Below, one piece after another: positions 26,259 through 64,000 of a DNA stretch of 64,000 nt (position 1 is its first letter; each line of letters opens with the position of its first letter). Where the stretch lies: the NCBI RefSeq assembly GCF_018873765.1, contig NC_057924.1, positions 10,069,001 through 10,133,000 of the forward strand. Reading direction: 5' to 3'. Source of the DNA: Telopea speciosissima (Eukaryota > Streptophyta > Magnoliopsida > Proteales > Proteaceae). Below the pieces are notes generated by a model. That model saw only the letters and a list, made by a program, of their open reading frames with translations, ran no database searches and was not told where the DNA came from. Position numbers and translations under genes: made by a program.

Positions 26259-26814
26259 TTAGTGACACTGCTTTACAGAGAGAGAAAGAGAGAGGGGGAA
26301 GAAAAAAAAAAGGAAAAAGGAAAGCTTTTCTAGGGCCGACCATGCCCGCACGGACCGTCCACGTAGTTCGGTTCTTGGGCCGCTTTCATCCCCTGCTCAC
26401 CTCGAATGGAAGAATTTTCTGTAGCTTTCGCACATCCACACCGAACCAAAAATGACAGTTCCTCATGAACCAATAATGGCCCCTCGCAAGCAACTTGGTT
26501 TTGTGCGTCCAGTGAGCTCAGATTTCTAGCCCACTTCTCGTCTGCCACCTGTCATCTCTCTTCCCCCCCCCCCTCCTATCTAGTCCTTCTCCTTCAAATT
26601 TTTAAGTATTTTACTGCTGTGGAACTCTCTGATTTCGTTGCTTGTTTGCAGTGATTTACAATTTGATTTCATTCTAAAATTCTGCCAGAGCCCAGAATCG
26701 AATTGGGTCTTCAGCTTTCCTTCTTTCCTTCCTTTTGCGAATTCATCTTTGTCCCATATAAGCTGCAGAGAAGAGAACAGAAGAGCACTGTTTCATGTTT
26801 TCTGTTTTGAAGTT

Positions 26815-29181
26815 ATGGAGCGCTATGAGATACTGAAAGATATTGGGTCTGGGAACTTTGGGGTTGCCAAACTTGTTGTAGATAAGTGGACTAAGGAACT
26901 CTATGCTGTGAAGTATATTGAGAGAGGGCAGAAGGTTTGTTTCTTATTCTATCTGTCAATTGGGTTCTTGGTTTATGATTTGATTTTTAGCCTATTTGTT
27001 TATGGCTTCTATTTGCTATTTCATTTCTTTTTCTTTTGAGCTCTGTCTATAGGTTTTTTGTTTTTTCTACTAATTCACTGGCTACCTCTTTGTGGCATAG
27101 ATTGATGAAAATGTGCGAAGGGAGATTATGAACCATAGATCCTTGACGCACCCCAATATAGTTAGATTCAAGGAGGTGGGTATTTTTATCTACTTTTGTT
27201 ACTCATGGTTCTGTATTTGTTTGATTGAAACTAAAACCCAATGGGAGGAGCAGAGAACTCAATCCTGTAATTGCTTCCATTTCATTCTCTGTTTCTTCTT
27301 CCTATTCGTCTCTTCCAGTCTGTACTGAACTTTGCTCACTCTTGAGATAGATATTCCCTTTCATCTGGCCTTCAAGAAGGCCTTAGCTGTTGATAAGGAA
27401 AAGGAATTTCTGTTTTCAAGGACACAATTTTTCTATGTCGGACTCCCAATCAATTACCTCTTTGAAGATACACTGCTCCTATTCTGATTCTTTTATTGTG
27501 GTTCATCTATTTGAAGAAAGTACTGTTCCAAATCTGCTTGTTTTTATGTGGTTCATCTACTATCTTTGCTGAATTGTATGGCAAGATCTCAAAACATGTC
27601 GCTTATTATCTCCAAAAGGTTCACATGTATTTAAATGCTTAACTATGTGTAGGAGTGCTCTTTATTACTCTTGAATAGATGCACCAATCCTTGCAGGTTG
27701 TGCTGACTCCTACTCATCTAGCCATAGTCATGGAATATGCTTCTGGTGGGGAACTCTTTGAAAGGATCTGCAATGCTGGTAGATTCAGTGAGGACGAGGT
27801 AAAATAAATTACTGAAGGTTATGAATCATGATGAGAATCTTATCTTATTTAGAAAAGGCTATAGTCCATGGGATTATACCAATTTCTAATTTGTACAAGA
27901 CACCTGATTCCTCCTAAAAGCTAAAAAATACCCAATTCTCCATTGATATATGTCAATATAAGGTGTTAAATTGACTTTCTTTTGCTCTCTCTTTTTGTTT
28001 GAATTCAGGCAAGGTTCTTCTTTCAGCAATTGATATCAGGAGTCAGTTACTGCCACTCTATGGTATTGTCTATCAAACATGTTGAAATAGATAATAATTC
28101 TCCTTAAAAGCTGTGATAACTCAGGTTGGATCGTTTTAATTTGATCATTGGATGCAGCAAATCTGCCACAGAGATCTTAAGTTGGAAAACACACTCTTAG
28201 ATGGGAGCTCTGCACCACGACTAAAAATATGTGACTTTGGGTATTCCAAGGTTATTATTACTGTTTCTATAGATAGAACTGAATTCATTTTGATTCTTTG
28301 ATCACTTATCGTTCTGCCTTGTTTTGCAGTCATCTGTCTTGCATTCTCAACCAAAATCTACTGTAGGAACACCAGCCTATATTGCACCGGAGGTATTATC
28401 TAGAAAGGAATATGATGGCAAGGTGATATTGTTTATCTTCTTTATAGTTCATTTTGTAACTTGGTTTGGTCCTTAAAACCAATTCTTAACACGCTGTCCT
28501 TCGGAACTATAGATTGCAGATGTTTGGTCTTGTGGAGTCACTTTATATGTAATGTTGGTTGGAGCTTACCCCTTTGAAGATCCTGATGATCCAAGGAACT
28601 TCCGAAAGACAATTGGGGTGAGTGATGCACAATTTTTAAGTTATCTGGCAGTTTGTTAGCTCTGTTATGAGTTCTAATTGCAGATGTATGGCTTATGGTA
28701 GCGGATACTTAATGTCCACTACTCAATTCCAGATTATGTTCGAGTATCCATGGATTGTAAGCATCTCCTTTCTCGAATTTTTGTGGCTAACCCTGAAAAG
28801 GTAATTTTTTTATGCCAAAGTATGTCATCACTGTTGCAATCTTTCGAGTTATGTTTATTGGCTTTTCCTGATTGGCCTCCATTGGTTTCTCTTTAGAGAA
28901 TAACCATTCCAGAAATTAAAAACCATCCATGGTTCTTGAAGAACTTGCCAATAGAACTCATGGAAAGAGAAGAAGGAAGCTTTCTGAATAATGATATAAA
29001 GGATACATCCCAAAGCATTGAAGAGGTACTGTCTATAATACAAGAAGCAAGGAAACCTACTGATCAGGGATTCAAAATTGGTGGCCATTTTATTGGGGGC
29101 AGTATGGATCTTGATGACATTGATGCAGATACAGACATAGATGAGATTGAAACAAGTGGTGATTTTGTTTGTGCATTATGA
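26815..29181 (+). CDS. SnRK2 protein kinase, ABA-activated (subclass III) type
   Basis: Nine exons: join(26815..26934,27101..27175,27697..27798,28009..28062,28158..28250,28330..28422,28513..28617,28702..28800,28897..29181), giving 341 aa, near the family length (about 340-362). SnRK2 Ser/Thr kinases act in osmotic-stress and abscisic-acid signalling; subclass III members are held off by PP2C phosphatases. Seen: glycine loop [14 protein letters not shown] lysine K33 (YAVKYIERG), catalytic HRDLKLEN (D123), DFG (D143), and activation loop [17 protein letters not shown] with Ser154 and Ser158 matching OST1 Ser171 and Ser175. The SnRK2 box follows at about residues 280-305. The acidic ABA-box tail ([23 protein letters not shown]) is Asp-rich, which points to subclass III (SnRK2.2/2.3/2.6) rather than the Glu-rich subclass. 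Exons follow the conserved SnRK2 pattern and all splice sites are GT-AG. Confidence 0.95.
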
Positions 29182-33824: not shown

Positions 33825-36800
33825 TGTTCTCTGTGCTGGGGGTGCAGGCTGCGCCTAGACACATGGGGGTGGGCGAAATGACCATCTGTTGGCGAAATCA
33901 ATGGGATAGAGATTGAAGCAAATCAGTCTTATTTAGCAAGAAACGTTGGCAAAATCAATGGGATAGAGATTGAAGCAAATCAGTCTTATTTAGCAAGAAA
34001 TCAAGCCCATTCATACGGTGGTTGTAATTTCCTTAAAAGTAGTCATCCTCACTTGGCAGCCAAGTTGTACACTTCTTTATTTAAAGGAGATTCTTCTCCT
34101 CCCCATGTAACTAAGTAAAAATGGGGTTTTCTCTGTGGACGTAGGTTCTTCTATGAAGGCCGAACCACATTAAATCTTTGTTGTGCTCTTCCTTTTCCTC
34201 TTTCTCTTCTACCTTTCGCCTTGCAATCGTTATTTAAAGCATTTAGAACATGGTATCAGAGCGGATCAAGATCATGGGACGTGAATGATATGATTGGTTG
34301 CCATTGCCGATAATTACTTGTGTTCTTTGTGATCGTTTCTCTTGAGTGTTGTTAATGCGATTAGTCGTGATCGTTTCTCTTGAGCTGCTTGTTAATGCAA
34401 TCGTTGTGACCTTTTTTTGGATATTTTCTGCTGCTGCTCTTATTCACAGATAAGTTTTTTTTTCCTGATTTATTTATTGTCATCCGTTATTTACAATGAC
34501 TGGTTCTGCTGATAGTAGCAAGTCTAGTTCGCATGAAGTGAATAATAGACTTACCTCTATTTTACTTAATGGCCGAAACTACCTCCCTTGGTCTCGAGCT
34601 GTCTCCGTCGCTCTTGGAGGTCGTTCAAAATTGGGCCATATTAATGGTCAGACTAAAGCCCCAAGTTCTAATGATGATAAACTTGTTGAATGGCAAGCCA
34701 ATGACAATCTTGTCATGTCATGGCTATTTAATTCCATGGAACCTCAGATTTATGAGATTTTCGCTTATTCTGAAACATCTAGTGAACTTTGGAAATCTTT
34801 GAAAAATATGTATGGGCATCAAGACAATGCCTCTCGAGTCTTTGAACTACAACAAGAACTTTGTAAAACTGAGCAGGCCTCGGGTCAATCCTTCACTGAA
34901 CATCTTGGTAATTTAAAGAAAAAGTGGGATGAACTTCGACAATATCGACCCACTACTTCTACCATTGAGGAATATACTAAACGTCTTTGAGCAGGATAAA
35001 ATTTTTCGATTGTTAGCTGAGTCTTCGACACTGAGTATGAAGATTTGAGGAGGCAAATTCTCATGAGTTCTCCGCTTCCATCTTTTATTAATGTTTGTGC
35101 TACTATTCAGCGTGAAGAAACTCGAAAAAGAGCCATGAATCCCGATTCTAAGATAGGGGAGAAATTGTTGAAACCTCTGCGAATACCACCACCGCCAACT
35201 GAGTCAACAATCGGCGTGGAGGTCGAACCGTATCTGGTAAAGGCAAAGGGAAAGGGCGTGTTTCTAAGTATCACTTGTGAACACTGTAATAAAGATGGTC
35301 ATACCAAGGATCTTGTTGGAGTTTGTATCCTCATTTAAGGACCAACAAGGACAAGGCACGATGCCATGGTTGCTGCCCAAGCTCCTACACCCGATTTACA
35401 ATCCTCTCGAGTCGACTTTCTTCACGGCTCCAACAACTGTTGAAACAAAGTGGCACATCAAACCCTCCAACCTTGGAGTCTAGCAACATGGTTCAAACTT
35501 CTGGTAACATCTCTGCCTTCTCTGTTACATCTCAGAATTGTTTTATTATTGATTCAGGAGCTACTAACCATATGTGTTGCACATCTGATTGTCTGTCAAA
35601 TGTATGTGATGGGATCCAATCTTCCATCACTGTTGCTAATGGAGAAAAAGTCCCGATCAAAGGACTTGGGACATTAAATTTGTTCTCCACGTCCGCACAT
35701 ACTTTGTTTGTGCCATCTCTGTCATCTAATTTGTTATCTGTTGGAAAAATGACTAAAGAATTGAATTGCACTGTGATTTTTTCTTCCAACAAGGTCACAT
35801 TTCAGGACAGGCTCACAGGGAAGAAGATTGGTGAAGGGCGTTTTCAAGACGGGCTATATGTAATTGACATTCCTAGCAAGGCCTTAAGTGCTCGTCAAAA
35901 CAAAGATGAAGTGGCTCGGCTTTGGCATTTCCGAATGGGGCATCCATCTGATAGGGTGTTACATTATTTGAATTCAGATTTTTCTCTTAATTCTAGTGGT
36001 TGTGACATTTGTCGGTTTTCAAAACAGCATCGGTTACCATTTTCTACTAGTACTCATGTTTCTTTTGAAATATTTGATATTGTTCATTCTGACGTTTGGG
36101 GGAGTGCACCTGTTGACTCACGAGATGGATTTAAATATTTTGTCACGTTTATAGATGATAAAACTCGGGTCACCTGGCTGTATTTACTGTCCTCTAAAAT
36201 CGAAGTGTTGCAAATTTTTCAAGATTTCTACAATATGACTCGTACTCAGTATGGGCGAAGTGTTAAAATTTTACGCACTGACAATGGAACTGAGTACACC
36301 ACCAACTCCTTTCAGAGAGTTCTTAAGAGTCTTGGTATTGTTCACCAGACTTCTTGTGTGGGCACTCCACAACAAAATGGAGTCACCGAAAGGAAGAATC
36401 TTCACCTACTTGAGGTGACCCGATCCCTTCTGTTTCATGCAACTCTACCTAAACAATATTGGTCTGATGCAGTACTCACCAGCTGCTATTTAATTAATCG
36501 ACTTCCTAGTAAAGTCTTGAAATATAAATCACCTATGGAGGTTCTCCTTAGTCGGCCTGTGAATATTTCTCACCTGCGTGTCTTTGGCAGTATTTGCTTT
36601 GTTCATTCCCAGCTGGGGAATAAGCTTGAACCTCGTGCAAAAAAATGCATTTTTTTGGGGTATTCCTCTGTGAAAAAGGGGTATAAGTGTTATGACCCTT
36701 CCACAAAACGGGTTTATATTTCTCGTGATGTCATTTTTGATGAAAATCACTTGTTTTTCCCTCGCAGAGAACAACTTCAGGGGGAGAATACTCAGAACAA

Positions 36801-39145
36801 TTATGATTATAGTGATTTCGATGTTGAAGTTGCTCCTCTGCCTCTCACTAGTGGTATTGATGAAAGTAAGAATGGTGGTGACTCCATAGAACTGCCACCT
36901 CCAACTGGTGAGAACTGTGGTGAGAACTGTGTTGACACCACTACAATTCTGCCGAATGATGATGCACTATTGCCTACTGGTGAAGCCAATGCACCAGTGC
37001 CGATGCCACCTGCTCCTGTACGCAGGTCTACTCGTGTTCCACAACCTTCTACCAGACTCCGTGATTTTTCCACATATCACTCTGCAGCCGTGGCTTACCC
37101 TATACAGGCGCATATTTGCTATGATAATATTTCTTCAGATTATCTTGCCTTTCTGACTGCCATTAGCAACCACTCAGAACCGGCTACCTATTTTGAGGCA
37201 CAAGGGTTACTTGTATGGAAAGAAGCCATGAATGAGGAGCTCCTAGCTCTTGACAAAAATCATACTTGGGACATTGTGTCATTGCCACATGGGAAACGGT
37301 CTGTGGGTTGTCGATGGGTGTATAGGATCAAATACAAGAGTGATGGGTCCATTGAGAGACACAAAGCCAGGTTGGTGGCAAAGGGGTACACCCAAACATA
37401 TGGAGTGGATTATAAAGAAACATTCGCTCCGGTTGCTAAAATGAACACCGTTAGGGTCCTTATGTCTATTGCTGTTAATCAAAGTTGGTCTCTCTTTCAG
37501 ATGGACGTAAAAAATGCTTTTTTACATGGGGATCTTGAAGAGGAGGTTTACATGGACCTTCCTCCTGGACATCCCTTAGAAGGACAACCTGGAATTGTGT
37601 GTAAGCTAAATAAAGCTATTTATGGACTCAAGCAGTCACCTCGGGCTTGGTATGGTAAGCTAAGTTCTGCTCTCTTGTCCTTTGATTTCAAGAAAAGTGA
37701 GTCTGATCCCTCATTATTTGTTAAAAGAAGCTCAAAGTCTGTTGTGGTGGTGCTAATCTATGTCGATGACATAGTCATCACTGGTGATGATCTTTATGAA
37801 ATTGGAAAGCAATACTTGAGAGAGAAATTCGACATCAAGGATCTGGGAAGATTGCGTTACTTCCTTGGAATTGAGATAGCAAGTTCTAGCAAAGGGCTAT
37901 TTCTCTCGCAAAGAAAATATGTTTTGGATTTGTTGAAGAAAACTGGAAAGCTTGGGGCAAAGCCGGCTAATACTCCAATGGATTATAACAGCAAGTTTAT
38001 TGAAAAAAATAATCCATTACCGATCGTGGACGTTTCACGGTTGGTAGGAAAGTTAATCTACCTAACCATCACTAGACCGGATATTGCTTATCTTTGTCAG
38101 AAGTAAGCGTTTATGCATTCTCCCCCTGAAGGCCACATGGGGCTCGTTGACCATATATTGCGATACCTTAAGTTTTGTCCGGGCGTGGTATCTGGATGAA
38201 GAAGAATGGGCATACTGAGGTTGTTGGTTACACAGATGTAGATTGGGCCGGAAATCCTGAGGATAGAAGGTCAACAACTGGTTTTTTGTACATTCGTAGG
38301 AGGCAACCTGGTTACCTGGAAGAGTAAGAAGCAGGGTGTTGTTGCGCGCTCAAGTGCCGAGGCTGAGTATAGAGCCATGGCTGCCACCACAAGTGAACTT
38401 GTTTGGCTTCGTTTACTTGTTCGTGAGCTTCTGCATAAAGACTCTACAAGACCTATGAAGTTGTTTTGTGATAATCAAGCGGCAACTCATATAGCTGCGA
38501 ATCCAGTTTTTCATGAACGGACTAAACACATAGAGGTGGACTGTCATTTTGTCCGTGAAAAGGTCCAAGATAAGACTATTGAGACTCCCTACATCCGAAG
38601 TGAAGATCAGTTAGCGGACATGTTTACCAAGGCTCTTCCTAAGGGTGTGTTTCACAAGATGTTAGCCAAGTTGACCTCAATTGACATTTTCGCTCCAACT
38701 TGGAGGGGGAGTGTTGGCGAAATCAATGGGATAGAGATTGAAGCAAATCAGTCTTATTTAGCAAGAAACGTTGGCAAAATCAATGGGATAGAGATTGAAG
38801 CAAATCAGTCTTATTTAGCAAGAAATCAAGCCCATTCATACGGTGGTTGTAATTTCCTTAAAAGCAGTCATCCTCACTTGGCAGCCAAGTTGTACACTTC
38901 TTTATTTAAAGGAGATTCTTCTCCTCCCCATGTAACTAAGTAAAAATGGGGTTTTCTCTGTGGACGTAGGTTCTTCTATGAAGGCCGAACCACATTAAAT
39001 CTTTGTTGTGCTCTTCCTTTTCCTCTTTCTCTTCTACCTTTCGCCTTGCAATCGTTATTTAAAGCATTTAGAACAATGACCATCCTACCCCCCTGAATGG
39101 CAGACCCATGTGTTTGGGCGCAGGCCGCACTGCTGCACAGAGAAC
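33825..39145. mobile_element. MITE (gttctctgtgc ends) split by a copia insertion
   Basis: Left half 33825-33886 and right half 39076-39145 are inverted arms: gttctctgtgctgggggtgc against outward gttctctgtgcagcagtgcg, both reaching acacatggg. Joined across the insertion this is a MITE of about 125 bp of the gttctctg family. The LTR element between them is described separately. Confidence 0.75.
33887..39075 (+). mobile_element. Ty1/copia LTR retrotransposon, very young (fossil)
   Basis: LTRs of 364 bp each (33887-34250 and 38712-39075), starting TGTTGG and ending AACA, differ at about one position, so insertion is recent. The primer-binding site tggtatcagagc follows the 5' LTR and a purine tract (ggaggggga) precedes the 3' LTR. 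Order of parts: gag (about 34.5-35.3 kb), protease (IIDSGATNHMC), integrase (LWHFRMGHPS, GTPQQNGVTERKN), reverse transcriptase ([26 protein letters not shown]) and RNase H (about 38.2-38.7 kb), the copia order. It is broken, with roughly four breaks. Each LTR opens with a tandem pair of about 58-bp units. Flanking 9-mers atgaccatc are identical on both sides. Confidence 0.95.
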
Positions 39146-40575: not shown

Positions 40576-43586
<3,011 letters not shown>

Positions 43587-44731
43587 ATAATGCTCTGCAA
43601 ATTTTGAGGGTTTCAGTCAAAGATGGATGTTATCGCTGAGATATTTATCAGTAGAGGGATCAGTATTACATGGGTTTGAGATAATTTTGACTGCTATTTT
43701 TTTTAAAGATATTTTGAGCCGTTTGGTTCTAGTGTGTTGGAAGAAAAAAAAATCATTTTGGATTTGGCTGGAGCTTAGTTTTGTTTCAAATCTAGACCTT
43801 TTTCAGCTGTCTATTTTCTGCATAGTAGATTTATGTTTGCAATAATTGTTCCTAAATCCTTATGGTTAAAATTATGGGATTACCTTTCTTCCTTGGTTAC
43901 TGATCTGGTTTTTACTTATCTTGGGTTATCGTTCTTCCTTTCTTTCTGTGGTATGCTCCTTCCCTTAACTTCTATGTGGATGTTAGAAGGGCTTATTTTC
44001 TGCTATTAGTCTACTTGAAAATGGATTTCCCCGTGAACAGATGTTCCATTAAGGAATCCTGGCTCACTTAAAACTTCCCAACACTACGAGCAGCTTTTTT
44101 ATGTAGCACAACTCTCCGGGGAATCATATTCTGCAACTGAATTTTTGGCACCCATGTGTTTGTTTATTTTTTGGCGGGCAGTTGATCCCTTGGAGAACTA
44201 GGCATTGTATTTCATTTTTTTATTTTGAGCCCATCTTTGATTCTTGCCCGTTACACTACAGTTGATTCTTAGGAAGCCATGATCCAGCTATGAAACCCTC
44301 AAGCCCCACAGTGGACATTTTTTTGGGTGGATTTTTGTATTATTGTTTACATAATCTTCTACTCACGGGTTAATTCTCATTTGGAAGGTTTTTAGTTGGA
44401 AATTAGTTGCAAAGTTCTTGCTGTGTTAGAATTGTTTATAAGGTTGAACTTTTTTGAAGTATGAGATAGGGGACTCTAGAAATCAAGAGGAAGATCTTCC
44501 AGACATGGAGGGCCATGGTCATGATGTTGGCGTTAGTCACTGAAATCGCTTGCCTAGGGATTTCCCGTGTATGTTGTGATCATGATGTTGACGTTAGTCC
44601 TACCCAATATAGCTTGCTCGTTCGGTTCTAGATCTACTGATAAGCTATTGGTCTCTCAAAGTTCTAGAATGAATGTATTAAGTAGGAACTGTTGGAGCTG
44701 GAATAAATTCAGAGTCTAAGCCTATATAGTA
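43587..44731. other. eS6 3' UTR and spacer
   Basis: The likely 3' UTR is followed by sequence without recognised gene. catgatgttg(g/a)cgttagtc occurs twice (about 44520 and 44583), a small direct repeat. Confidence 0.4.
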
Positions 44732-45545: not shown

Positions 45546-47090
45546 GGGTAAAGTACACGTACCCCCGTAGAATGCACCTAATATTCCTCGTACCCCCCCT
45601 CAATATTCCAGGTACCACCCCTGCTTTACACCCCAAATGCCACATAGGTCCAATCCGTTAAATACCATTGTTAGATGACAAGTTTTTGATCGTTTTACCC
45701 TTTGTTTCAATTTCTTAAATCTGAAAAGACTTAAATACCCTCACTTATTTGTTGCCCTAAACTAATTGAAAATGACCAATTTAACCTTTGTTTTATTTTC
45801 ATAAATGAAAAGACTTAATTGCCCTCACTTATATATTACCTTAACCTAATTTGAAAAGATTATTTTGCCCCTAAATAATTTGTTCCTAAAAATCCCAAAA
45901 TGCCCTCATCTTCTCCAAATCATCATCTTCTTTTACATACCCACCACCACCACCACCACCACTACCACCGCCACCACCACCATGCTTCGATTTTCCCAAC
46001 CGTAAAGCTTTGTACACTTCGGTGATGGAGAGGAAAATCTCCTCCACCTCCACCTCCACCACCACTAAGAAGTTTCTTCCTTCACCTTCTTCTTCTGTGA
46101 TCAAAACAAAAAATGCCTTCGAGGCTCTTCAATCCAAACCCTAGTCCAAATATGAAAATTTTGAAAACCGTCCATCTTCTAAAACCCTCTTACTCCTCTC
46201 TGGTACGACTTGAGAAGAAAACGCAAGAGAGAGAGGAGAACGATAACCCTTGACGCTGGGTAGACAATTCACGCCGAGCAGACAAATTGGCCGGATTTCT
46301 TGCATCCACAGTTACCATCAGGTATGGATTTCTCTCTCTCTCTCTCTCTCGCAGTTTGCTGTCTATGAGAATCGGTTTTATTGATTTTTTCTCACCAGTG
46401 TTCGCTTATTTCTTTGATTTCTGTATTCTATTTCTGCTAATCAACTTCACTATTCGCTTTGAAAAAGCAAAATCTATATACGTAGCAGGTTAAGCTTTCT
46501 TTCTTCCTAACGTTTTCATGTCCTTCTCATTTTCCCTCATGACACTACTTCTTGCTGAGATGGTTAGGGTTTGAATTTCTACCTTAAAAATCCCTACATT
46601 TGCAGACTTTCTTTAACTTTCTTACGTGGGTTAGAAAAGGGTTTTTTCCATGAAGAGAGCCGTCTCTAGGTGGAGGTGGAGGAGATTTTCCTCTCCATCA
46701 CCGAAGTGTACAAAGCTTTACAGTTGAGAAAATCGAAGCATGGTGGTGGTGGTGGTGGGTATGTAAAAGAAGATGATGATTTGGGGAAGATGGGGGCATT
46801 TTGGGGTTTTTAGGAATAAATTATTTAGGGGTAAAATAGTCTTTTCAAATTAGGTTAAGGTAATATATAAGTGAGGGCAATTAGGTATTTTCATTTATGA
46901 AAATAAAACAAAGGTTAAATTGGTCATTTTCAATTAGTTTAGGGCAACAAATAAGTGAGGGTATTTAAGTCTTTTCAAATTTAAGAAATTGAAGCAAAGG
47001 GTAAAATGATCAAAAAATTGTCATCTAACGGTGGTATTTAACGGATTGGACCTATGTGACATTTGGGGTGTAAAACAGGGGTGTGAGATA
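45546..47090. mobile_element. MULE-like element with inverted repeats of over 400 bp
   Basis: The left arm (about 45612-46062) and the right arm (about 46672-47090) are inverted copies at roughly 90 percent by eye. Shared blocks include tttgcccctaaataatttgt, aaaatgaccaatttaacc and gtacacttcggtgatggaga. The arms contain a gene-like fragment in which one strand reads EEIFLSITEVYKAL, a Gly run and YVKEDDDL. The outermost 65 bp of the left arm (gggtaaagtacacgtacccc) have no partner on the right, so the right end is truncated or replaced and no target duplication can be seen. The interior has a (TC)n tract at about 46330-46349. No transposase. Confidence 0.7.
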
Positions 47091-50131: not shown

Positions 50132-50662
50132 TCATGACTTCATCAAGATTTCCACAGGTGGGCTGTTAATGATTCTACAGTTCCTCCGGATTTCGCCCGG
50201 CCGACCAGATTGCAGGTCACCCATCTTCACCATTCCCTCCACAAAAGCTTTGAAGAACGCCTCTTGATCAGTGCTGAATTGTTGAACGTATTCTCGAGTC
50301 GTTCCATTGGATGAGTACAGCGTTTGATCTGAATTGAGAAATCCTCGCCCAGAAACTAAGTCCTTGAAGTACTGATTATCAAACACATGTGGAGTTGAAT
50401 CAAGGTCCCCTGTTACGTTCCCGTCTCCACCGATAGGGCAGAGCTTGTCAAGCTTCTCTCTGAACTTGGGTTCCATGACAGGGTCAGGCCTACCCGTTCC
50501 CGACTGGTTGTAGAGGCGGAAGACAATTGAGAAACAGCGTCCGTTGCCGATTGAGTGAGAACCAGAGAGGGCTACAAGATCCTTTACAGAGAGATTAAAT
50601 TCGCTGAAGAGATCAATTAGGGCACTTGCAGTGGCTCTTGGGCTCGGCATGATCTCTGATGA
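50132..50662 (-). pseudogene. Class III peroxidase, last exon only
   Basis: One open exon of 176 codons follows a plausible acceptor (acattacag). It reads SSEIMPSPRATASALIDLF, then ALSGSHSIGNGRCFS with the proximal haem histidine, RLYNQSGTGRPDP, DNQYFKDLVSGRGFLNSDQT and GDLQSGRPGEIRRNC, ending ILMKS. It closely resembles the C-terminal half of PER17-type secretory peroxidases. The upstream exons with the signal peptide and distal RxxFHDC motif are not found in the 0.8 kb before MRE11 or beyond. The exon itself is uninterrupted. Alone it cannot make a working enzyme, so this is a truncated gene copy. An unusually distant first half is possible but would have to lie across MRE11. Confidence 0.85.
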
Positions 50663-51498
50663 CTGTAATGTCATAATCTGGTTCTCTGATGACTGACACG
50701 TTTTACCTTAAGCCACTTTCAATTTGATTGAATACTGGGTATTCATCATCTATGGAGGATGAATATTTAGACTTTATTTTATTGTCATGTCTTTATATCA
50801 GTGAATATTCTGATGCTGTAATATTTCTATGATATTATACTTGTAATGCCATTGGATCTTTTCCATAACTGTAGCCTAAATTCTTCTTTTTCTGTACCAT
50901 TCATCGATAGGACCCACTTATGAGATCTTGTTGCATTGCTGTGTACTTTTGGACCTGTGGGCATTCAATTTTTGAAGTGCTGAAACTGTTTATTTATATT
51001 ATCATTTTGTAGGAGAACTTTCATGCTATGTTCCTCCCCCCTGCTTTGAGCTAATAACCACCAAAGGTGATTTCATGTAGCTAGGATAATTCCTTTTATT
51101 TTTCCCCTGTTTCACTACTTGCTACTTCAACTATTTTTTTATTTTTTTTTAAATCTGTTAATATGATAATTAGATGCTTACAGGCAGGACGCCGGCGGCA
51201 ATATACATTTTAAGTGCTTGTTGCCAGCTTATTGGCATTCTGGTTATCTGGGGCAGGATGGAATCATATAACCCTATGAGATCTTATATTTCACATAATA
51301 TCATCTGGATATCCTTTAGGAAATTAAAATGCAACTGATTAGGTCAATACAATTGTAGGATATGGCTAGTTTTGCAGGTGATATAATCTTATTGATGGGG
51401 TTCTCTGTTCTAATGGTTTATCCTTGTTGTGTTCCCTGTAAAATGGTAGATTTCAGTAACAGTTTATCACTTGTCTAATGGTTAAAAGAACTTTTCAG
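50663..51498. promoter_or_regulatory. Space between the peroxidase exon and MRE11
   Basis: Probably holds the MRE11 promoter and first short coding or UTR exon. A duplicate tctctgatgactg at about 50653 and 50681 sits at the peroxidase end. No further peroxidase exon seen. Confidence 0.4.
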
Positions 51499-54400
51499 GG
51501 AGGATATGAACAACACGCTCAGAGTGCTTGTTGCAACTGATTGCCATCTGGGTTACATGGAGAAGGATGAAATACGCCGGCATGATTCATTTCAGGCATT
51601 TGAGGAGATATGCTCAATGGCTGAGCAAAAACAGGTAATGATCAGCTGATTCTTCTTGTGTATTTACTCAGACACATTACCATCTATTATCTCTGAATTT
51701 GAACTTAAGGAGCACTATTCTTAAATGTTGATTGCAGGTAGATTTTTTACTTCTTGGAGGTGATCTTTTCCACGAGAATAAGCCTTCAAGGACAACTCTT
51801 GTTAAGACCATTGAGATCCTCCGTCGCTATTGTCTCAATGATCAACCAGTGCAGTTTCAAGTTGTCAGTGATCAGACAGTGAACTTTGCAAACATGTATC
51901 ATTTTCTGTTTACATAAGTTACTGATTCAATTTCTGTAGTTCATTTTCCATTCCTTCCATTTAGCAGCAAAAAAATCATTTACTTGAAACTAGGAGAGAG
52001 ATACAATTTAAGGGGAGATAGTGCTCCGAAAAGGAATAAGAAGGTGCAGTACAAAAATGAGCTCCTGCCCAACAAATCAATGAATAACCTGACTGAATCT
52101 CATTGATAAAACCCCCTTACGCTCCCAGAACCTGCCATGTTTCCCCAAACCACCACAACCCAACAGGGTAACCAAGAGTGCACCCAACAATAAATCACTC
52201 TATCCAAATGTTACAAGATTCCACACACTCGCCACAACCAGACAACATCAACCACAAGGAAAAATCTCAAAAATAGTAATGGCACAGTGAAGAAGAAATG
52301 GAGCAAGGTTGGGCCATGTGGGTGTTTTACCCGTGTTCCCTACTCCTACCTTGGGCCTCGTACCAAAAAGGTTTCTTGATTTTTCTCTCCTTTAGGTCCT
52401 GTCATGGCAGTACACTTGAATATTTAACTTCCACCAATGACAGTCCTAGGGCCAAGATTTTTCTCTCCTCCCTGCATATGGTGTGTTCCCTGTAAACTGG
52501 TAGATTTTACACCTCAGATGCTAAATTGGACGACATGTTGTTTATGTTGGGAGGAAGGGCGGTCATATAAAAAAGTGCAAAACAGAAGTTAACAGCAGAT
52601 TCCATGACTGAGGCTGAATACTTGGCTCCATGTGAGGCAGCCAAGGAAGGGGTGTGGTTGAGAAAATTCTTGACCGATCTGGAGTTTGTACCTGACCTTG
52701 TTAATCGCCCTATATGCCTGTTATGTGATAACAGAGGAGCCATTGCTTAAGCTAAGGAACCTAGAGCCCATTAGAAGTCCACTGAAGTCCAGTTTTTTGT
52801 AATGACATTTGGTTACCTAATTCTGGATTTCCTATTGAACTTGTTCCGAAGTATTACACTTTCTTATCGTTGTTTATTTTTGGTTCTGAATCTTAGAGCA
52901 AACACCAACCAAAAACACGAAAGAAAACAAAAACAGAGCAAGATGACACAGAGATTTAACATGGTTCACATACCAGTATGGTGTGCTACATCCACAGGCG
53001 AAGGCGAAGATGATTCACTATGCAAATCAGAGAAAAATTACAATGGAGATCTCTCAAGAACACCCAAAACGGCGCTGCTGCTCTCTCCCAGAAACCCTAA
53101 AACGAAAACCCAAATCTTACTCATCTTTACAATAAAGCGGGTAAAGAACATAAATACTCCTCCATCGGATCGGATCCGGGTCGGGTCGGCCCATGCCCTC
53201 CGCTACCATCACAGATCTCAGAAAAAAGTTCCATTCGGGTCGCCACCAAAAATGTCGGAGCGGGTCATTCTTCGAAACAGGTTCAAGAATTCGAGACATA
53301 CATAACACTGAATTTTCTAAACATGTTATGCTTGGTCTGCTGTTAATGTAGCCTGGGAAAGTCTACCCTGTGGGGTTTGGGGTTAACATGAACAAGGTCA
53401 CCAACTGTCTGTCTGGCTGGCTGGAGGGTCCTATATTAGATGCATTGTCTGGTTGGCCATCTCTTTTCCATGTGGCAGAATCTCCTGTCCTGACTGTAAA
53501 CCAATGCGATGGGGTTCCAATACATTAGTCTTCCCCTTTTGCTTGTTGTAGTTAAATCAGTAATCAACATGTTAAAGGCAACATCTGTGATTTGTAATAG
53601 CTTTGATTTGTCTTACAGATTTGTTCATGTAAATTATGAAGATCCTCACTTCAATATTGGCTTGCCAGTTTTCAGTATTCATGGAAATTACGATGATCCA
53701 GTTGGAGTGGTATGGTGTAAAGTTAAGAACTCAAACATCAGATTATTTAGTTTAAATATATAAATTTATTTATTTTTTCATGTGATTCAAACAAATGTTG
53801 CAATTCCCATTTTGAGTGACTTACTGTAATTCATTGCAACTGTTTGTAATTGCTTGTGGTTGTACTATTGTTTTTTATTAGTAATGAATAAAAAACCAAC
53901 AACTAATGGATCTTTATGATAATCAGATCACAGAATTTAAAAGAAAACTATAATTCAAGTCTGTATTGAACAGATCAGCTCCAAATAGGATCTTTCAAAA
54001 CAATCAATGAATAGGAAATTATCAAGCATGAAAACAGTTTGAAGGGCAGAGATCTGATCAGTAACCTTTGCGACAGTACTGCGACAAGAGATACTTTGAA
54101 AATCCTCCAATTACAGCAGAAGATCATGCTACAACAGTATTAATAGCTTGCGCAAAGAAAACACCCACAAATAGCAGTGGTAAGGGGCATGGCAGCATGT
54201 GTAGAACAGCAACAGCAGGGGCAGATCACCATATGCGGGGAGGAAAACTCCACTCCAACAACAGTGCCCCACTATAGCTAAAGGCCTCTATTCGAGTAAG
54301 GCACACACAACCTCTAAGCGTTCTCACGAGCAACGGTGCTCTACGATCAGTTTACTTTCCAGGCTAATCCCTTGCTTGGTTGAAGTGTTTTAGCGCAGTA

Positions 54401-57400
54401 GTTTGATTGCTGGGGTGCGCTATTGCACTTTGGCTTTCTTCGCATGTTGGGGCAAAGCAACCTGATGCGTTGTGGCACCCGGCATTGCTCCAGCAAGATA
54501 CGGCCAAACTTAGCACAAGAAACCCTAGTTTTTACTTATCCAATTACAATTTCACTAAGAACAATCCAGCAAAAGGGTAAATATTGAAGGAGAAACAGAA
54601 ACAACAGGAGATTTTTTTTTCCCTTCTCATCTTCTTCTTCATTGCTCTGATGTTACAAAATAAGAGTTGAATAACCAGGATCAAAGTAAAAGAAGAAGAA
54701 GATAAGAAGACAAGAAGTAGAAGGGAAGAAGGAGAGGAGAAGAGGAGAAGAGGAGAAGAGAAGAGAGAGAGAGAAGACATAAGAGAGAGAAAATAAGGGA
54801 AAGAAGCTCACGGTTTTGGTTAATTCACAAACCGTGAGACATGCCATCATATTTTTAAGAGTAAATTATACTGACCTCCCCTGACCGATGCCTCAAATAC
54901 ACGGACCTCCCTTGCCTTTCTGACAATTACTCTTGTACCCCTGATGCTAACAACATTAGAAAAAAAAGATGAGTTGATAATTTTACCTCTCAATTCTTAT
55001 TGCTTCAAACTCATTACCGGAAACCCTTTACTATGATTTTTATTTTTTTAATATAAAAAGGTGGGACCCACCACTACTCCTTCATTTCTTTCTTTCTGTT
55101 TCACTGCTGCAACCTCCGGCTACCCAGTAACAGCAACTCTAACTGAAGAAATGCAACCATGTTGCAGTGCACTCCCTTCAGCGTCCACCTCCATCTCCAT
55201 CTCCGGCTTCATCTCAGACCACCCATCCCTCTCCTTTGCTGCAACCCCGCCCCAGCTCCTTTCCAAATTAGAAAAAAACAGGGGAAGGAGCTAGAACCCT
55301 AAAATCTAACTCCAAATTAGATGGTTAATAGTCTTAGATTTCAGATTCCACTAATTGGTTCACACTTCAAATCCAGCATATTTGGAGTAAGATTTCGGAG
55401 GCTGCAACAAAGAACACACGAGCTTCTCTCTTTTTCTTCCCCCCCTCTACAAAATACCACAACAGAGCTCTAAAACCCTAAATACCAAAATGAAGATCTC
55501 TGACTGGAGTTCTGTTCTCTACCGTTTCACCTAGAAGCTCGAACTGTTAGGGAAAGGCAGCGTAAACTCTCCCTTGCACGTGCAGGCCAAAATCCCATGG
55601 TCCTTGCACATGGAGCTCACGCAGTACCAAGGGAGAAGAAATGTCGGGAAAACACTTCCGATGCACTTCCCAAGAGTCGAACACTTGACCTCGCTGCTCT
55701 GATACCATATTCGCTATCGTTTCACCTAAAAGCTCGAACTGTTAGGAAGGTAAGCGTAAATGTATACATCAACAATTTCATTATATAGACTTCTTGTGAA
55801 AGAGAAAGCAGAGCATTCATCCCAAAACCCTTAAAAGAACCACCTTGAATTTGTTTGATATTCTCTTTTTGTTATCTTGAGCTTTGGTTCTCTTCCACAA
55901 TTGTATTGTTATCCTGTATCAATATCAGTCGATGTGGGCTGCTAAGTTCTTATACGGTTTTTCTGCTTCCTTTCCTTCCCAATCTTGTAATCCCTCCAAA
56001 TTTCCAGTTTCTATTAGTACTCAGTAGCAGCAGCGGACCATCCATGCCCGACATTGACGGCTCACCTATAAGCACCTTGCCACTTTGGGGAAACTGGTTT
56101 AGCAGCAAGCCCCATGCAGAGTGGTGTCTTTTTTTTTTTCCGTTTTTTCCCCTTTCTTACTTTTCTCTTCAAACTAATTTGTGACTTGCGATCTTTGAGC
56201 TCTGCGGGGATGGGGTTGCAGAGGGGTGGGAGAGGATGAGGTTGCAGGAAGAAAGAAGAAAAATAAGAGGGATGGGGCCGGGTAGAGTTGCAGGAAGTAA
56301 TGGGCTAAACAGTACAAAAGATCAAGGTTCTTCAATTGAAGGACCAGACATAGCAAAGCAAGGTCATCCCTGTAGGTGTCTCTCACACCTCTTGCATAGA
56401 AACCACTAAATCTACTCTCAAATAAGAATTAAAACAAAAATTAATGAAACTACTAATTGACTCCAGTTGCAATTTTAGCATCTTTTCTAAGTGCTTGATT
56501 CCCTTATGAATAAAAACCAATACAAACTTTGAAAATAGAAACTCACTTGTAAGAAGGTTCAGCCCAGCCAGCCCAAATTTCATGGTCTTAATGGGCCAGG
56601 ATTAGGCTCAATAGTTAGTCCATACGTGGGAGGAGGTTTCTAGAAGGATCCAGCAAGATACCATGCTGGATCACTAACAGACTGGGGCTGTGTGTAATGA
56701 AGTTTGGAAAGTAGGGGTGGTTTGGGTATTTGTCAGAAACACAGGGGAGGTCTGTATATTTAAGGCAAAAGTCAGGGGTGGTCAGAGTAATTTACTCTAT
56801 TTCTAATAAACGAGTTAAGTACAATAAGAAAAGATTGTAGTCCATAATTACCTACGATAGACAAAACAACAAACTAAAGATAATAGACAATAACTAAGAA
56901 CCAGTAATTATAACTAAAAAACAAGAACCACAGTTAATAGATGTAAATAATAAAGAAGAAAAAGTGAAGAGGAGGGAGAAGAGAGACACGGTAGAGGCTG
57001 CTGCAACTCTGGGAGTCACAACTGTTGAGTTATAACTTCCCCAATCTATTCAATATATAGAGTCATAACCCAATTACATAACCACCACAATGAGGCTGAC
57101 CAAATAAAGGGTAAAAAAGGAAGAACCAAACCAAAAACAGAAAAGAGGGAAGAAGAGGAGTTGTGAGAGTCGTGATTAGTGCCACTTCTCTCCCCCTCAA
57201 CCCGATAACTCCTAACACTCCCCCTCAATCTGGAGGATAGATATCCTTGCCTATTGGAGGGCAAGGATACATGGACCAGACTCCATTTAGCTAATTCTCT
57301 TGACGTGTTGGGCTGTGCTTCTTCCCTGTTACTATCTATTTCCTTTTTTCATTTTGCGTTTTCCTTTTTCACTGCTCTTCTCTTCCCCCTAATGTAGTCC

Positions 57401-60400
57401 TAGATAGACAAAGGGTCTACTAGGAGCCAAGTAACCAGGACCTTTCAATACTGCTGGCCGATTGGGGCAGAATTGAGGATTTGGGTCAGAATTAGGGTTA
57501 GGTTTAAGGTAATGGATGTAAATTTTATATGGTAATGCTAGGCAGGTTTAGAGGAAGCTAATAGTGAAGGTTTGAATGATGTTTGAAGAAAAATTAAAAA
57601 TCAGAAAATTAGGTTTTGGGTTTTGAGAAAGAAGAATGTGATTAGTTTTAGGGTTTAGAGGTGGATTTTAGGGATGGGCTTTTGGCCGAGTGTTAGAGGC
57701 AGTATTAGGGCGGTTCTGCTGTAATTTGGAGGGGTTTGGATGGTTGGATCTAGACAGATTTTTGGGGTTTTGGGTTTTAACAGAGATGAGGGGGATTAGG
57801 GTTTTGATGGGAGGATGGACCTAGAGTTAAGATCGAGTGGAAAGGTTGCTAAGTAGGAGCTGTGGGTGAAATTTGATTGGATTTGGCTGGTGAAATTGGG
57901 CTGGGCAGAATCTAGATTACCTAGGGTTAGGTGGATCGATTGGGAATAGGTAGGCTTAGGTTGGAGGATTAGAAGAATAAGGATGAATGCTGTAACAGTA
58001 AACTACTTACTTGAAAACTGATCTTCAAAGGCAGCAGCAGCTTGAAGAAGATAGGGTCTCCCGATCTACAAGATGCAAGGAGAAGAAAAGAGGATCATCC
58101 CAGTCTACAAGACGCAAGGAGTCGATTGGAGATCCACCAATCCCTTCACCTTGATATTACTCACAAGGCACACTCTCAAAGGAGCAAAGCAACAGCAACA
58201 ATGGCAGCAAGCAAACACAAAGTTTATTTTCAAATCTAAACTGTGGGGGAGCCTCCCACGTTTTAAAAAAAAAAAAAGGCCATACCCAGTGCACAAGGCT
58301 CCCGTGTTTAGCAGGGTTTGGGGAAGGTCAAATGTACGCAGCCTCCTCCCACGATTTTATTAATAAATAATATGGCCTAAGGCCCAATTCCTATTACAAA
58401 TATGAATCACTCCCCTTCTAAAATCGTGGAGGGGGTGGGACACTTAAATTGAAAGCTAAAACTTAAAAGATTCCCTATCTACCAATAGGAAATAAGAATC
58501 AATTCGCATGTTACATATGCCATGGGCCCATGGCTCGATACTTTGACTCTGTACTGGATCTAGCCATTGTACTCTGTTTCTTGCTCTTCCACGACACAAG
58601 ATTCCCTCCAACAAAAGTGCAATAATCTATAGTCGATCTTCTATCAATAGGGGACCCAGCCCAATCGGCATTTGAGAAGCCCTCAATTCTTCCATGTCCA
58701 TGATCAAAGTATAGTAGACCACGCCTTGGAGCCTTATTGAGGTATCTCAGAATGTGAATAACAACATCTCAATGGATTTCTGAGGGGAAGACACAGAATA
58801 ACTCACAACGCTTACCGGAAAGGCAATATCGGGTCAAATCACAGTCAAGTAATTCAATTTTCCAACCAATGTTCAATGTTTCTTAGGATCATTTCGAGCA
58901 TCGGCACTATCAGCTGTAAGCTTTATGTTAGGATCCATCGGAGTATCCAGAGGTTTGGACCCTAACATCCATGCCTCTGTAAGCAAATCAAGAACATACT
59001 TCCATTGTGAAAGTGAAATGCCTTTCCCCGACTAAACCGCCTCAACACCCAAAAAGTATTTTTATTTTCCCAAATCTTTAGCTTGAAACTTTTGCTGTAA
59101 GTGAGTTTTCAAAATCTTAATGCCTTCAGAATCATCTTCGGTGATCACAATATCATCTACATATACTATGAGAAATATTCTCCCTGTACTGGATTGACGA
59201 TAAAATACAAAATGTCACTATTCCATCGTGGTAACCTAAACTCAAGTACACTCAGACCAGACTCCCCCTGAGCAACAAAACTAGGGGCTTGCTCCATATA
59301 TACTTACTCATGGAGATCACCATGAAGGAAAGCATTTTTAACATCCAATTGGTATAACGACCAATGATGAGAAGCTGTAAGAGATATCAGAACGCGAACA
59401 GATGCAAGTTTGGCAATAAGGGAAAAAGTATCTTATTTATCAACCCCATATACCTGAGCATACCCTTTAGCCACTAGTCTGGCCTTTAAATGAGCAAGAG
59501 AATCATCAGGATTCACCTTAACAACATAAACCTAATGGCAGCCAATGGCAGACTTACCTGCAGGTAAGGGCACAAGATCCCATGTTAAGGTGAACACTTC
59601 CTCCTCCATAGTTGTCTGCTAGCCAGGACTAGACAATGCCTTTGCAACATATTTAGGAATAGGATGACAAGCAACAATAGCAAGACATGAATGAAAAGAA
59701 GAAGATAAACCAGAGTAAGACACAAAATTGGAAAGAGGATGTTGAGTACAACTCCAAACACCCTTACACCGAGCAATAGGAAGATCAAGGTTGGATGAAG
59801 GTATAGTTAGCTCAGGATCAGCAAACAAATACGATGAGGCAGAGGCTATAGAGACCGGGAGTGCAGGAGCTGCTCGAGGATGACGAGTGTAAACATGCTG
59901 AATGGCTGGTGGATGACGCAGCTCTAGAGCAGAAGGAACCTATGATACATAAGGCTGAACAATATAGGTGGGAAGATCATCATCCAACTCAGAAACAACA
60001 AATGAGTCATCCTTATAAGATGTGGACTCAAAGAAAGAAACATCTGCCATGACAAAATATTTATTCAACTCATAAGAGTAACATCGATATCCTTTTTGAG
60101 TATGAGAGTAACCAAGAAATAGACATTTGAGAGCTTTCAGATCCAGTTTCGATAACCCAAGACGATAATCATGAATAAAAAAACACCCAAAACCTCGGGA
60201 GGTAGAACTTAGAGGAAAATAATAATGAATTAGTAATACCACTGCGTAATATGGAGGAAGGCCTGCGGTTAATGAGATAGCATGCAGTCAGAACATCATC
60301 AGCCCAAAACGACTTAGACACCTTCATCTCAAAAAGAAGAGACCGAGTAACTTCCATCAAATGTCTATTCTTCCATTCAACAACACCGTTTTGTTGAGGG

Positions 60401-63400
60401 GTGTCTGGACAGGAAGGCTGATGAATCATACTATGTTGGACCATGAAACGAGAAAATGGGTCCAAAAAAAAAAATATATCTTTGGCATTGTCACTTCGTG
60501 GGATACAAATAGATTAATTAAATAGAGTCTGAATTGCAACAACGAATGCATAAAAAATTGAAAATAATTCAGAACTACTTTTCATTAAATAAAACCAAGT
60601 GACTCTGGAATAGTCATCAACAAAAGAACAAAGTATTTAAATCCCAACCTAGAAACAATTAGATAAGGACCCCACACGTCGGAATGAACTAAAGTAAAAG
60701 GGTGCACAGACTGTTTATTGACACTAGGGGAATAACTCACACGATGGAGCTTCCTAAACTGACACAACTCATACTCTAAACTAGAAAGAGAACTGAAACG
60801 ATGATCAAGTCTTTTTAAACTCTTCAATGATGGATGACCAAGACGATGACACAACACTCGAGCAGGCAACGGAAGGAGAATCTTCAAGTAGAAGCAGCCG
60901 CACAATTCATGTCCTCTACCAATCATCTTCTTCGTCATAAGATCCTAAAAAACACACGAATCAAGGTAAAAGGTTATTGACCAATTGTATGCTTTAGTAA
61001 GTTTACTAACAAACAAGTGGTTAAAAGGAAATTCTGGTAGGTAAAGAACGGAAGACAAAAGACAAAGAAGAATTGAGATGAACAGTTCCAGTGCCATTGA
61101 ACTTTGCTAACGAACCATCAGCCAAAGTAACACTGGAGGAAGAATTGTGAAAGGAGGAAAATATCTCTGAAACACCGGACATGTGATCGGGTGCACTTGA
61201 ATCAATAATCCGGGGACGAGAAGAAGATGAGAGACATGCAGTGGCATTACCTGTTTGGACAAAAGTAGCAATGGGGGGTTGAGAGGGCTGAGAAATCTGA
61301 AACTGATTATACTATGCATATTCTTCATTTGTCATCATAACCATCTTACCCTCAGATAGTTGAGATTGTGTGGCAGACTCAATACTAGCAGCTGAATTGG
61401 CACACTGTTGCTGAGGTGGTTTGCCATGAAGTTTCCAACAAAAACGTTGAATATGCCTTGGTTGGCCACAATGATGACACATTCACACAGAGCTTGAACT
61501 GTCTGAAGGAGTTTGAGTACCAGAATTTTGTCCTCTGCCATAACCATGACCAGTCCCACAACTACGTGTGCCACCACGACCTCCTCCACAATTATTGTTC
61601 TGGGACACAAGATCTTAATTATCAACGGTTGTAGTATCACAGGAACCCTCTCGAGATACCCGTAGAACTCGGAAAAAGGTATCTGCGAGAGAGGCTACCT
61701 TTTCACCGCCAATAATCTGAGAATGAACAGAATCATATTCCTGTCCAAGACCACCCAAAAAGCCCATAACTGCCAGTTGTTCCCTCTGGCCCCGCATCTG
61801 TTTCGCATCAGCACTTATAGGAAGTAAAGAATTCAAGTCTTCATACATCTGTTTAAAACCAGGAAAGTATTGAGTCAGAGGACAACCCTTCTGATCAGCA
61901 CGATAAAATTCCTGTGACAACTCATACATATGGGAAAGATTATTCTATCCTGAATATAAAATATTCAAGTACTTCCACAACTCCTTCATAGTATCAATGT
62001 TAGTAACAAGATCAACGATATGATTTTCCATAGAATTCAACATCTGCTCAAAATTTGTGCATTAATGGTGTCCCATGATGTATCCGTTGCAGGCTTAGTC
62101 TCCTATCAGGTGATTCTGTTGGTCGCGGCCTGTAAAGACCAATTGAACAACCTTCTTCCATTGCTAGAAATTATTAATACCTTCTAGCTTCTTCTCAGTA
62201 ATCTGATTAGATGATGAAGAGTTGAAGACACAAACTCAGTCACCATATTCTTTGCGTATGCCATTGTCCTCACGTCACAGACAACTCAATAACCAAAATT
62301 CGCAACTCCAAACAATCGATCACCCCCAAAAATATCACGAACCAGCAACTATTGATAGTATCAGCACCCAAAAAGCATACCAGCCCCCAAAACTCGATCA
62401 ATCAACTCCAAACAAACAAATCAGTATACCATGGTGCTTGTAGGGGGGTGAAAACACCCCCTCTTAATGTAGTTGCAACCTCTGGTTTGAGTCAGTTACA
62501 ATTCAATCAAAGAAAAGAGAGAAAACGAAGTAGAACTCAATCTTGATTGGATGTGTAGCAGTACTTAAAGATCTTGCTCTGATACCATGTAAATAATAAA
62601 GGAGGAGGAGTGAGAAGAGAGAGATGGTAGAGGCTGCTGCAACTATGGGAGTCACAATTGTTGAGTTATGACTCCCCCAATCTATTCAATATATAGAGTC
62701 ATAAACCAATTACATAACCACCACAATGGGGCTGACCTAATAAAGGGTAAAAAGGGAAGAAGCAAACCAAAAACAGAAAAGAGGGAAGAAGTTCTCTCCC
62801 CCTCAACCCGATAATTCCTAACAATAGATGACCATAACTAACACCTAGCAACTTTAATCGTATATATTATACATGTTTGTAATGTTTCGTGAAACAACCG
62901 AAACTTTTCGGATATTTCTGCAGTTCGACTGAAATTTCGATTGAAACCTGGTATTCTTTCTGAATCGCATGTAGTTTCGTTTTGAGCCAACTCGAAACTG
63001 AAACATTTCTTCCAAATTTCGGTTTTTTGACTAAAATTTCAAACCTTGTTCTGCCATGACCAAGATCAGAAGGCCAATCAGAATTTTGATTACTTGGCTG
63101 GAAACCTGGAGCACTCATTTTAGTTTCAAAATATCAGTCAATGATTAATTTATCAATTATATTATTGAAATGTTCTGACTCATTAAATGTAGTTAAGCTA
63201 TTGATGGATTTATATTGATCATTAAAGTCTGCATTTAGTGGCCAGTTCTTATTGCCATAAATGTTATATTTTGTACTTTGGTGTCAGGGCAACCTTTCTG
63301 CAATTGATATTCTCTCTGCGTGCAATCTTGTGAACTATTTTGGGAAAATGAATCTTGGAGGATCTGGTGTTGGTCAGATCACCCTCTATCCTATTCTTAT

Positions 63401-63849
63401 CAGGAAGGTTTGTCACAATGAGCTTTTACTGATGGGAGTGTGCATTTACTTATCTAATAGCTTAAAGATCTTATAGATTTCTCTACTGGAAGTATTTCTT
63501 TAAATTCTTCAACCATTACAGAATGGTATAAATTATAAAATTCTTATGATTTAAAAATTTCTTCTTCTGTATGGGTTTTAGGGTTCAACAGCCATGGCTC
63601 CGTATGGCCTTGGTAACATCAGGGATGAAAGGCTCAATAGGATGTTCCAGGTACTTCCCGCTGTAAGACTTGATACAAATCTTTATCATCTCTGTGGAGA
63701 GACTTTTCCCAATGCTATTTCTAGCATATTTGATGGATTTATTAAATGATGCCTCAGACACCACATGCTGTGCAATGGATACGGCCTGAATCGAAAGAAG
63801 GGTTCCCAGTGTCAGATTGGTTCAACATTCTGGTACTCCATCAAAATAG
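51499..63849 (+). CDS. MRE11: MRE11 double-strand-break repair nuclease, 5' part
   Basis: Exons seen: 51499..51634, 51738..51895, 53619..53709, 63288..63407, 63582..63650, 63758..63849; the gene continues past the window. MRE11 is the Mn-dependent phosphoesterase of the MRN complex. About 219 N-terminal residues are present. Motif I TDCHLGY, motif [10 protein letters not shown] and the later VLHQNR are intact. Motif III reads HGNYDDP where the family has HGNHDDP (codon TAC at 53689-53691). Exon 4 starts GNLSAIDIL where DNLSAIDIL is usual. A usable ATG lies at 51506, but the acceptor tttcag just before 51499 and the residues RED (family MSREDF) suggest a short upstream exon not identified. Intron 3 is 9.6 kb, filled with transposons. 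The reading frame is kept across all six exons. Functional status uncertain. Confidence 0.9.
51896..53618. other. MRE11 intron 2 with insertions
   Basis: A 1.7-kb intron. Besides the copia fragment at 52505-52800 it has an LTR-like segment at about 52895-53310, with sequence such as gatttaacatggttcacata and gatctctcaagaacaccc that resembles LTR ends of plant elements. This second call is weak. Confidence 0.4.
52505..52800 (+). mobile_element. Ty1/copia RNase H fragment (fossil)
   Basis: Reads [20 protein letters not shown], then [12 protein letters not shown] and [10 protein letters not shown], the RNase H end of a copia polyprotein. Broken, without its own LTRs, lying in MRE11 intron 2 in the sense direction. 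Old. Confidence 0.75.
53710..54858. other. MRE11 intron 3, left part
   Basis: About 53.9-54.84 kb looks like inserted sequence, GC-richer in the middle and purine-rich at 54680-54800 (aga/gaa tract). No family recognised. Confidence 0.35.
54859..56797. mobile_element. MULE-like non-autonomous element in MRE11 intron 3
   Basis: Inverted ends of about 90-100 bp: the left gagtaaattatactgacctc mirrors the right end, with ga(c/t)a(a/t)(a/t)tac(a/c)c and cagacctcccctg-type blocks. The flanking 9-mers tatttttaa (54850-54858) and tatttctaa (56798-56806) differ at one base, a Mutator-type target duplication. The 1.94-kb interior has no transposase. It includes two related segments with accgtttcacctaa/gaagctcgaactgtta (about 55520 and 55716). 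Confidence 0.8.
56942..62823 (-). mobile_element. Ty1/copia element, old, reversed in MRE11 intron 3 (fossil)
   Basis: LTRs at 62588-62823 (5') and 56942-57217 (3') are flanked by the 5-bp duplication ataga. The primer-binding site complement gctctgatacca abuts the 5' LTR, and a polypurine tract complement (ctccccctcaa) abuts the 3' LTR. On the minus strand the order is gag with a zinc knuckle (about 62.1-61.4 kb), protease, integrase ([14 protein letters not shown], about 60.4 kb), reverse transcriptase and RNase H (about 59.6-58.5 kb). It is broken many times over. The LTRs differ by roughly 5-7 percent plus indels, so it is much older than the element at 33887. The stretch at about 57250-58440 does not fit the element and is probably a nested insertion. 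Confidence 0.9.
58262..58352 (-). mobile_element. SINE 3' fragment, Au-like, nested
   Basis: On the minus strand ggaggctgcgtacatttgac is followed by cgggagccttgtgcactggg and a T run, the Au-type SINE 3' end. It lies in the inserted segment inside the reversed copia element. Confidence 0.6.
62824..63287. other. MRE11 intron 3, right end
   Basis: 62860-63060 is rich in gaaatttc/gaaacttt inverted motifs (cgaaac, gtttcg) and may be another old MITE. The last part is ordinary intron leading to the acceptor ggtgtcag at 63281-63287. Confidence 0.35.
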
Positions 63850-64000
63850 GTACACATTGTTCTAGAGGTGGAAATGAAGAGCATTGTTTGGGAGCATATT
63901 TAAAATTACAGTACTTACTATGTTCACCCATCCACTTTTATGATCGGTAGAGTAAAGTCAAACCCTAAAAATGCAATAAATGAGCATTTCTTGCCACGGT

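Follow-up and report, generated by a model that had tools for sequence, protein, structure and literature searches.

Among the closest described counterparts of the gene presented here are yeast mre11-H125N and human MRE11 H129N, in which the same residue is altered. For yeast H125N, one study gives in vitro endonuclease activity as absent (PMC2625443). According to a report on Arabidopsis, mre11-4, presumed to encode 499 residues, is sterile and mre11-2, presumed to encode 529 residues, is fertile; neither protein was confirmed by the authors' Western blot (PMC3804616). Maize likewise has a pair of MRE11 genes (Mre11A and Mre11B), with reported dN/dS values of 0.014 and 0.370, one copy having the higher ratio (PMC5267385).

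The window analysed here, the whole stretch of 64,000 nucleotides at C9:10069001-10133000, carries the first part of a plant MRE11 gene with a tyrosine codon in motif III. This copy is very probably the decaying member of an MRE11 pair, in which motif III took one of the hits; its sister gene lies on contig C1. Decay has left several marks on this copy, and the best reading of the tyrosine is that it is one of them rather than an adaptation. The parts of the C9 gene inside the window are given below, with exon borders of both copies read from C1/C9 alignments rather than from transcripts and with residues in C1 numbering.

51478..51480, + strand: ATG homologous to the C1 start, out of frame (1-nt length difference), opening a short out-of-frame ORF that ends at a stop
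51506..51634, + strand: MRE11 exon 1, beginning at an in-frame ATG; motif I kept; Metallophos match
51738..51895, + strand: MRE11 exon 2; motif II kept
53619..53709, + strand: MRE11 exon 3, with ttacag/gtatgg borders; G107V, V118I, H129Y (GNYD) and A133V relative to C1
53710..63287, + strand: intron 3, 9578 nt (4038 nt in C1), with a copia-type remnant between 200-nt direct repeats
63288..63407, + strand: MRE11 exon 4; six differences from C1, D136G included
63582..63650, + strand: MRE11 exon 5; L182P at a residue common to human, Chaetomium and C1
63758..63849, + strand: MRE11 exon 6; LHQN motif kept
63951..64000, + strand: MRE11 exon 7, cut by the window end and continuing to C9:10133053; GHEH kept

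Translation of window positions 53680-53697 gives HGNYDD, which confirms the original prediction of GNYD at this site and places it inside an exon of a plant MRE11. The codon at which MRE11 motif III has histidine is TAC (Tyr), at 53689-53691 on the plus strand (C9:10122689-10122691); the C9 copy reads GNYD instead of GNHD and lacks the active-site histidine. When aligned with solved MRE11 chains, the tyrosine falls at human MRE11 H129, the residue that had been named as altered. PDB chain 8bah_A (human MRE11) has asparagine at the same aligned position, and we take it to be the nuclease-dead H129N protein. A whole MRE11 in which the tyrosine codon was translated would be expected to lack nuclease activity. 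A literature search for MRE11 and H129Y, both terms together, found no paper.

That only motif III was changed had also been claimed. For motif residues this is correct, as the four other phosphoesterase motifs checked (D-x-H, GGDLF, LHQN and GHEH) are all intact in C9; elsewhere in the window exons it is not, with G107V, A133V, D136G, L182P and other differences from C1. The proposed origin of the codon in one C-to-T change, from CAC to TAC, cannot be shown, since the C1 codon is CAT and differs from the TAC of C9 at two positions. Only a single base separates TAC from CAC, as would suit a base error in the assembly over a true His codon. Such an error is nevertheless very unlikely, because exon 3 contains three more amino-acid differences from C1 and the other lesions of C9 make an error unneeded. 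A base error at this codon would leave the conclusion on the C9 copy unchanged. RNA editing, another of the options first raised, found no support here.

A second MRE11 locus with GNHD, the presence of which had been suggested as a check, was found in the assembly on contig C1, with an open frame. This gene, modelled with 21 exons, lies on the minus strand between C1:55200338 and C1:55155494. Its frame is open for 729 residues, ending VTRNYGALRR-stop, and its motif III reads GNHD. The C1 exon borders are of the usual kind, with a GC donor at exon 16 in both copies and a less certain acceptor at exon 20. The C9 gene parallels the C1 gene exon by exon except for exon 20, which is scrambled in C9. 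We searched the genome (822,943,500 bases in 1287 contigs), with a tool that scores the best candidates only, using as queries the window MRE11 exons and 653 residues of the C1 protein. All 12 matches to the former (E up to 10) and all 36 matches to the latter (E up to 1) fell in the C9 or C1 gene. A genome scan with PF00149 gave 79 matches and was too general to do more than place the window. Exon 4 of C1 (C1:55190878-55190997) has VGHIALHPILV at a place where C9 reads differently, so that some of the differences between the copies may be derived in C1.

The C9 gene extends past the window to C9:10146814, and this part contains the following lesions.

C9:10138523-10138574: exon 12, with a frameshifting 11-nt deletion
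C9:10138674-10138676: TAG in C1's frame, in exon 13
C9:10144446-10144448: TGA in C1's frame, in exon 15
From about C9:10145991: exon 20 region, a duplicated stretch with stops

The frame-breaking lesions of C9 thus affect either the start codon or exon 12 and later exons, and exons 1-11 are open from 51506. Within the window, exons 1-6 and the start of exon 7 form an open frame from this ATG, so that the reading frame is kept there as originally predicted; beyond the window end it is not, given the exon 12 deletion and the later stops. C9 is a candidate unprocessed pseudogene, combining frame-breaking lesions, set against an intact sister gene, with retained introns (borders common to C9 and C1 in 20 of 21 exons).

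With all modelled exons included, the predicted C9 product has 402 residues, the longest obtained without exon skipping. Use of an exon 12 acceptor AG 4 nt downstream yields 381 residues; we rejected it as a rescue, since the frame, though regained past the deletion, then meets the TAG of exon 13. Skipping a single one of exons 9-19 gives at most 447 residues. Splicing around both exons 13 and 15 could in principle rescue a near full-length nuclease-dead protein, as this form, computed without the exon 20 region, runs for 593 residues to the last exon and is the longest of all forms lacking no more than two of exons 9-19 (the next longest two-skip product, among the forms listed, has 447 residues). 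We consider such a rescue extremely unlikely, because it requires two simultaneous skips, leaves the exon 12 stretch past the deletion in the wrong frame and omits the stop-containing exon 20 region.

In profile searches, the C9 copy scored 52.2 bits against the calcineurin-like phosphoesterase profile PF00149, above the cut-off of 21.5. Its match to PF04152 covers positions 4-85 of 178, short of a complete DNA-binding domain with the region downstream; the C1 match covers positions 4-178 of 178. Against TIGR00583 (mre11), the 402-residue C9 product reached 416.7 bits, below the cut-off of 434.6, and the first 528 residues of C1 reached 455.4 bits, above it. Over an identical 359-residue span C9 scored 405.8 and C1 418.6 bits; cut to this length both copies fall below the TIGR00583 cut-off, so the gap between them is one of degree only.

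Leaving out gapped codons and exon 20, 162 codons are unlike between the copies, 76 of which change meaning, two of those being stops. The missense changes also suggest C9 as the decaying copy, though with less force than the frame-breaking lesions. Differences were polarised with human and Chaetomium MRE11 (Arabidopsis MRE11 served only for orientation in exon placing and enters no count). Human and Chaetomium have an identical residue at 183 sites that carry letters in both copies. At four of these (H129Y, L182P, G300R and R368Q) only C9 has another residue and at none only C1, a contrast that is suggestive only (two-sided p 0.125), while both copies depart together at 48. Polarising the differences with these chains proved weak, since the single-outgroup counts of C9-derived versus C1-derived changes are even (8 versus 7 with human, 6 versus 5 with Chaetomium).

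The pair diverged under purifying selection on average, with an NG86 pairwise dN/dS of 0.11 (0.07-0.16) over exons 1-16. By region, the ratio is 0.13 (bootstrap 0.08-0.19) in exons 1-11, 0.07 (bootstrap 0.03-0.14) in exons 12-16 and 0.75 (bootstrap 0.42-1.44) in exons 17-21 without exon 20. The synonymous divergence dS is 0.34 over exons 1-16; taken over all, three methods put it at 0.25-0.29. Codon counts, nonsynonymous to synonymous, are 30:51 in exons 1-11 and 10:25 in exons 12-16 (Fisher p 0.40). Computing dN/dS along the gene, another check put forward with the original prediction, thus finds exons 12-16 no more relaxed than exons 1-11. Considering this and the overall ratio of exons 1-16, the loss looks recent. 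If the background dN/dS is assumed to be 0.02 to 0.10, a neutral phase of C9 would occupy about 19% to 2% of post-duplication time, a rough estimate that depends on the assumed ratio.

Another reading of these data is that C9 encodes a truncated MRE11 that is stable but has no nuclease activity, comprising the nuclease fold and a portion of the DNA-binding domain, and that it is retained to dimerise with the C1 protein as its regulator or scaffold. Exons 1-11 are open with the pairwise ratio given above, four of the five motifs are kept, and exons 7-8 show zero amino-acid differences between C9 and C1, which a maintained N-terminal part would also give. We still find this reading quite improbable, as L182P, G300R and R368Q affect residues common to human and Chaetomium, and dN/dS in exons 12-16 is not above that in exons 1-11, though a rise would be expected in time if only the truncated product were under selection (this comparison has little power). 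The C9 fragment is also shorter than the presumed 499-residue product of Arabidopsis mre11-4, which is reported to be sterile (PMC3804616). It is a similarly long shot that a dead fragment of ~380-400 residues pairs with full-length MRE11 and tunes end resection; if true, the C9 copy would be a natural separation-of-function duplicate in a plant lineage. A separation-of-function MRE11 keeping its scaffold role, one of the possibilities raised originally, does not fit a product that is over by residue 402 with all modelled exons. We rejected separation of function as the main account on the lesions in exons 12, 13, 15 and 20 and the lack of a selection contrast across the stops.

Homology between the C9 and C1 regions is interrupted by gaps and extends over about 50.7-78.1 kb (window-based coordinates), which corresponds to the gene and a short upstream stretch. 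Synteny of the two regions was assessed with two neighbouring genes, whose relatives lie elsewhere: neither the RPS6 neighbour (83-residue query, three genome matches) nor the TIR1/AFB-like neighbour (257-residue query, 24 genome matches) had a match near C1:55.2 Mb. A literature search for Proteaceae duplications found no paper matching four or more of its five terms.

The window further contains the TIR1/AFB-like F-box gene on the minus strand (2515-7002), a kinase first exon (26584-27036; its Pkinase match of 21.0 bits is below the cut-off of 31.7) and RPS6 (42844-43590). A plus-strand copia-type element at 34469-38940 has a long open pol frame (35293-38103) of 937 residues with integrase and reverse transcriptase. 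A large inverted repeat at 45616-47083 has arms of 343 nt (45616-45958 and 46741-47083) that are 95% complementary and encloses a further pair (91 nt, 97%); it looks like a palindromic mobile element. Directly upstream of the C9 MRE11 gene is a minus-strand peroxidase domain fragment (50135-50707), which matches PF00141 positions 115-236 of 237. The direct repeats in C9 intron 3 (56956-57155 and 62592-62791) are 92% identical over their 200 nt (K2P 0.09), and the copia-type remnant between them is on the minus strand, with a retroviral SH3-like match at 59943-60287.

Ordinary and apparently recent gene loss after duplication is the most likely account of the C9 copy. A decaying duplicate was among the explanations first offered for the tyrosine, and it agrees with the second GNHD locus with an open frame and with the frameshifting deletion and later stops of C9. 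Later exons full of stops had been named as the sign of plain pseudogene decay; stops do occur in exons 13 and 15 and in the exon 20 region, although the exons are not full of them. In the course of events that we propose, the MRE11 gene would have been duplicated together with its introns, and MRE11 is presumably supplied by C1, whose frame is open and whose motif III reads GNHD. Later, released from constraint, C9 would have picked up two nonsense codons, the 11-nt deletion and missense changes including H129Y, and its penultimate exon would have become scrambled. A C9 transcript, if made and spliced with every exon, would encode about 381-402 residues, comprising a nuclease domain with an altered motif III and a partial DNA-binding domain. 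As this product would be shorter than the presumed products of Arabidopsis mre11-4 and mre11-2, loss of function is likely. The analysis shows the two loci, the lesions, the open C1 frame and the selection ratios; we infer which copy lost constraint, when this happened, and that C9 lacks nuclease activity and function.

The locus would thus represent a DNA-repair gene pair returning to single copy, caught fairly early, as the sister gene is open and the decaying copy retains nearly all exons and borders. It also illustrates how a by-product of decay can show up in one exon as a striking active-site change, the clearer marks of decay here being outside the window.

Compared with the plant MRE11 on C1, the C9 copy has the same exon order and borders (20 of 21), motifs I, II, IV and V, the PF00149 domain and part of PF04152, but differs in the motif III tyrosine, the frameshift and stops from exon 12 onward and the TIGR00583 score below cut-off. 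Yeast mre11-H125N and human H129N are single Asn changes in whole proteins, whereas the C9 copy combines a Tyr with truncation. Maize Mre11B, unlike C9, is reported to be transcribed and under selection rather than broken (PMC5267385, PMC8568144).
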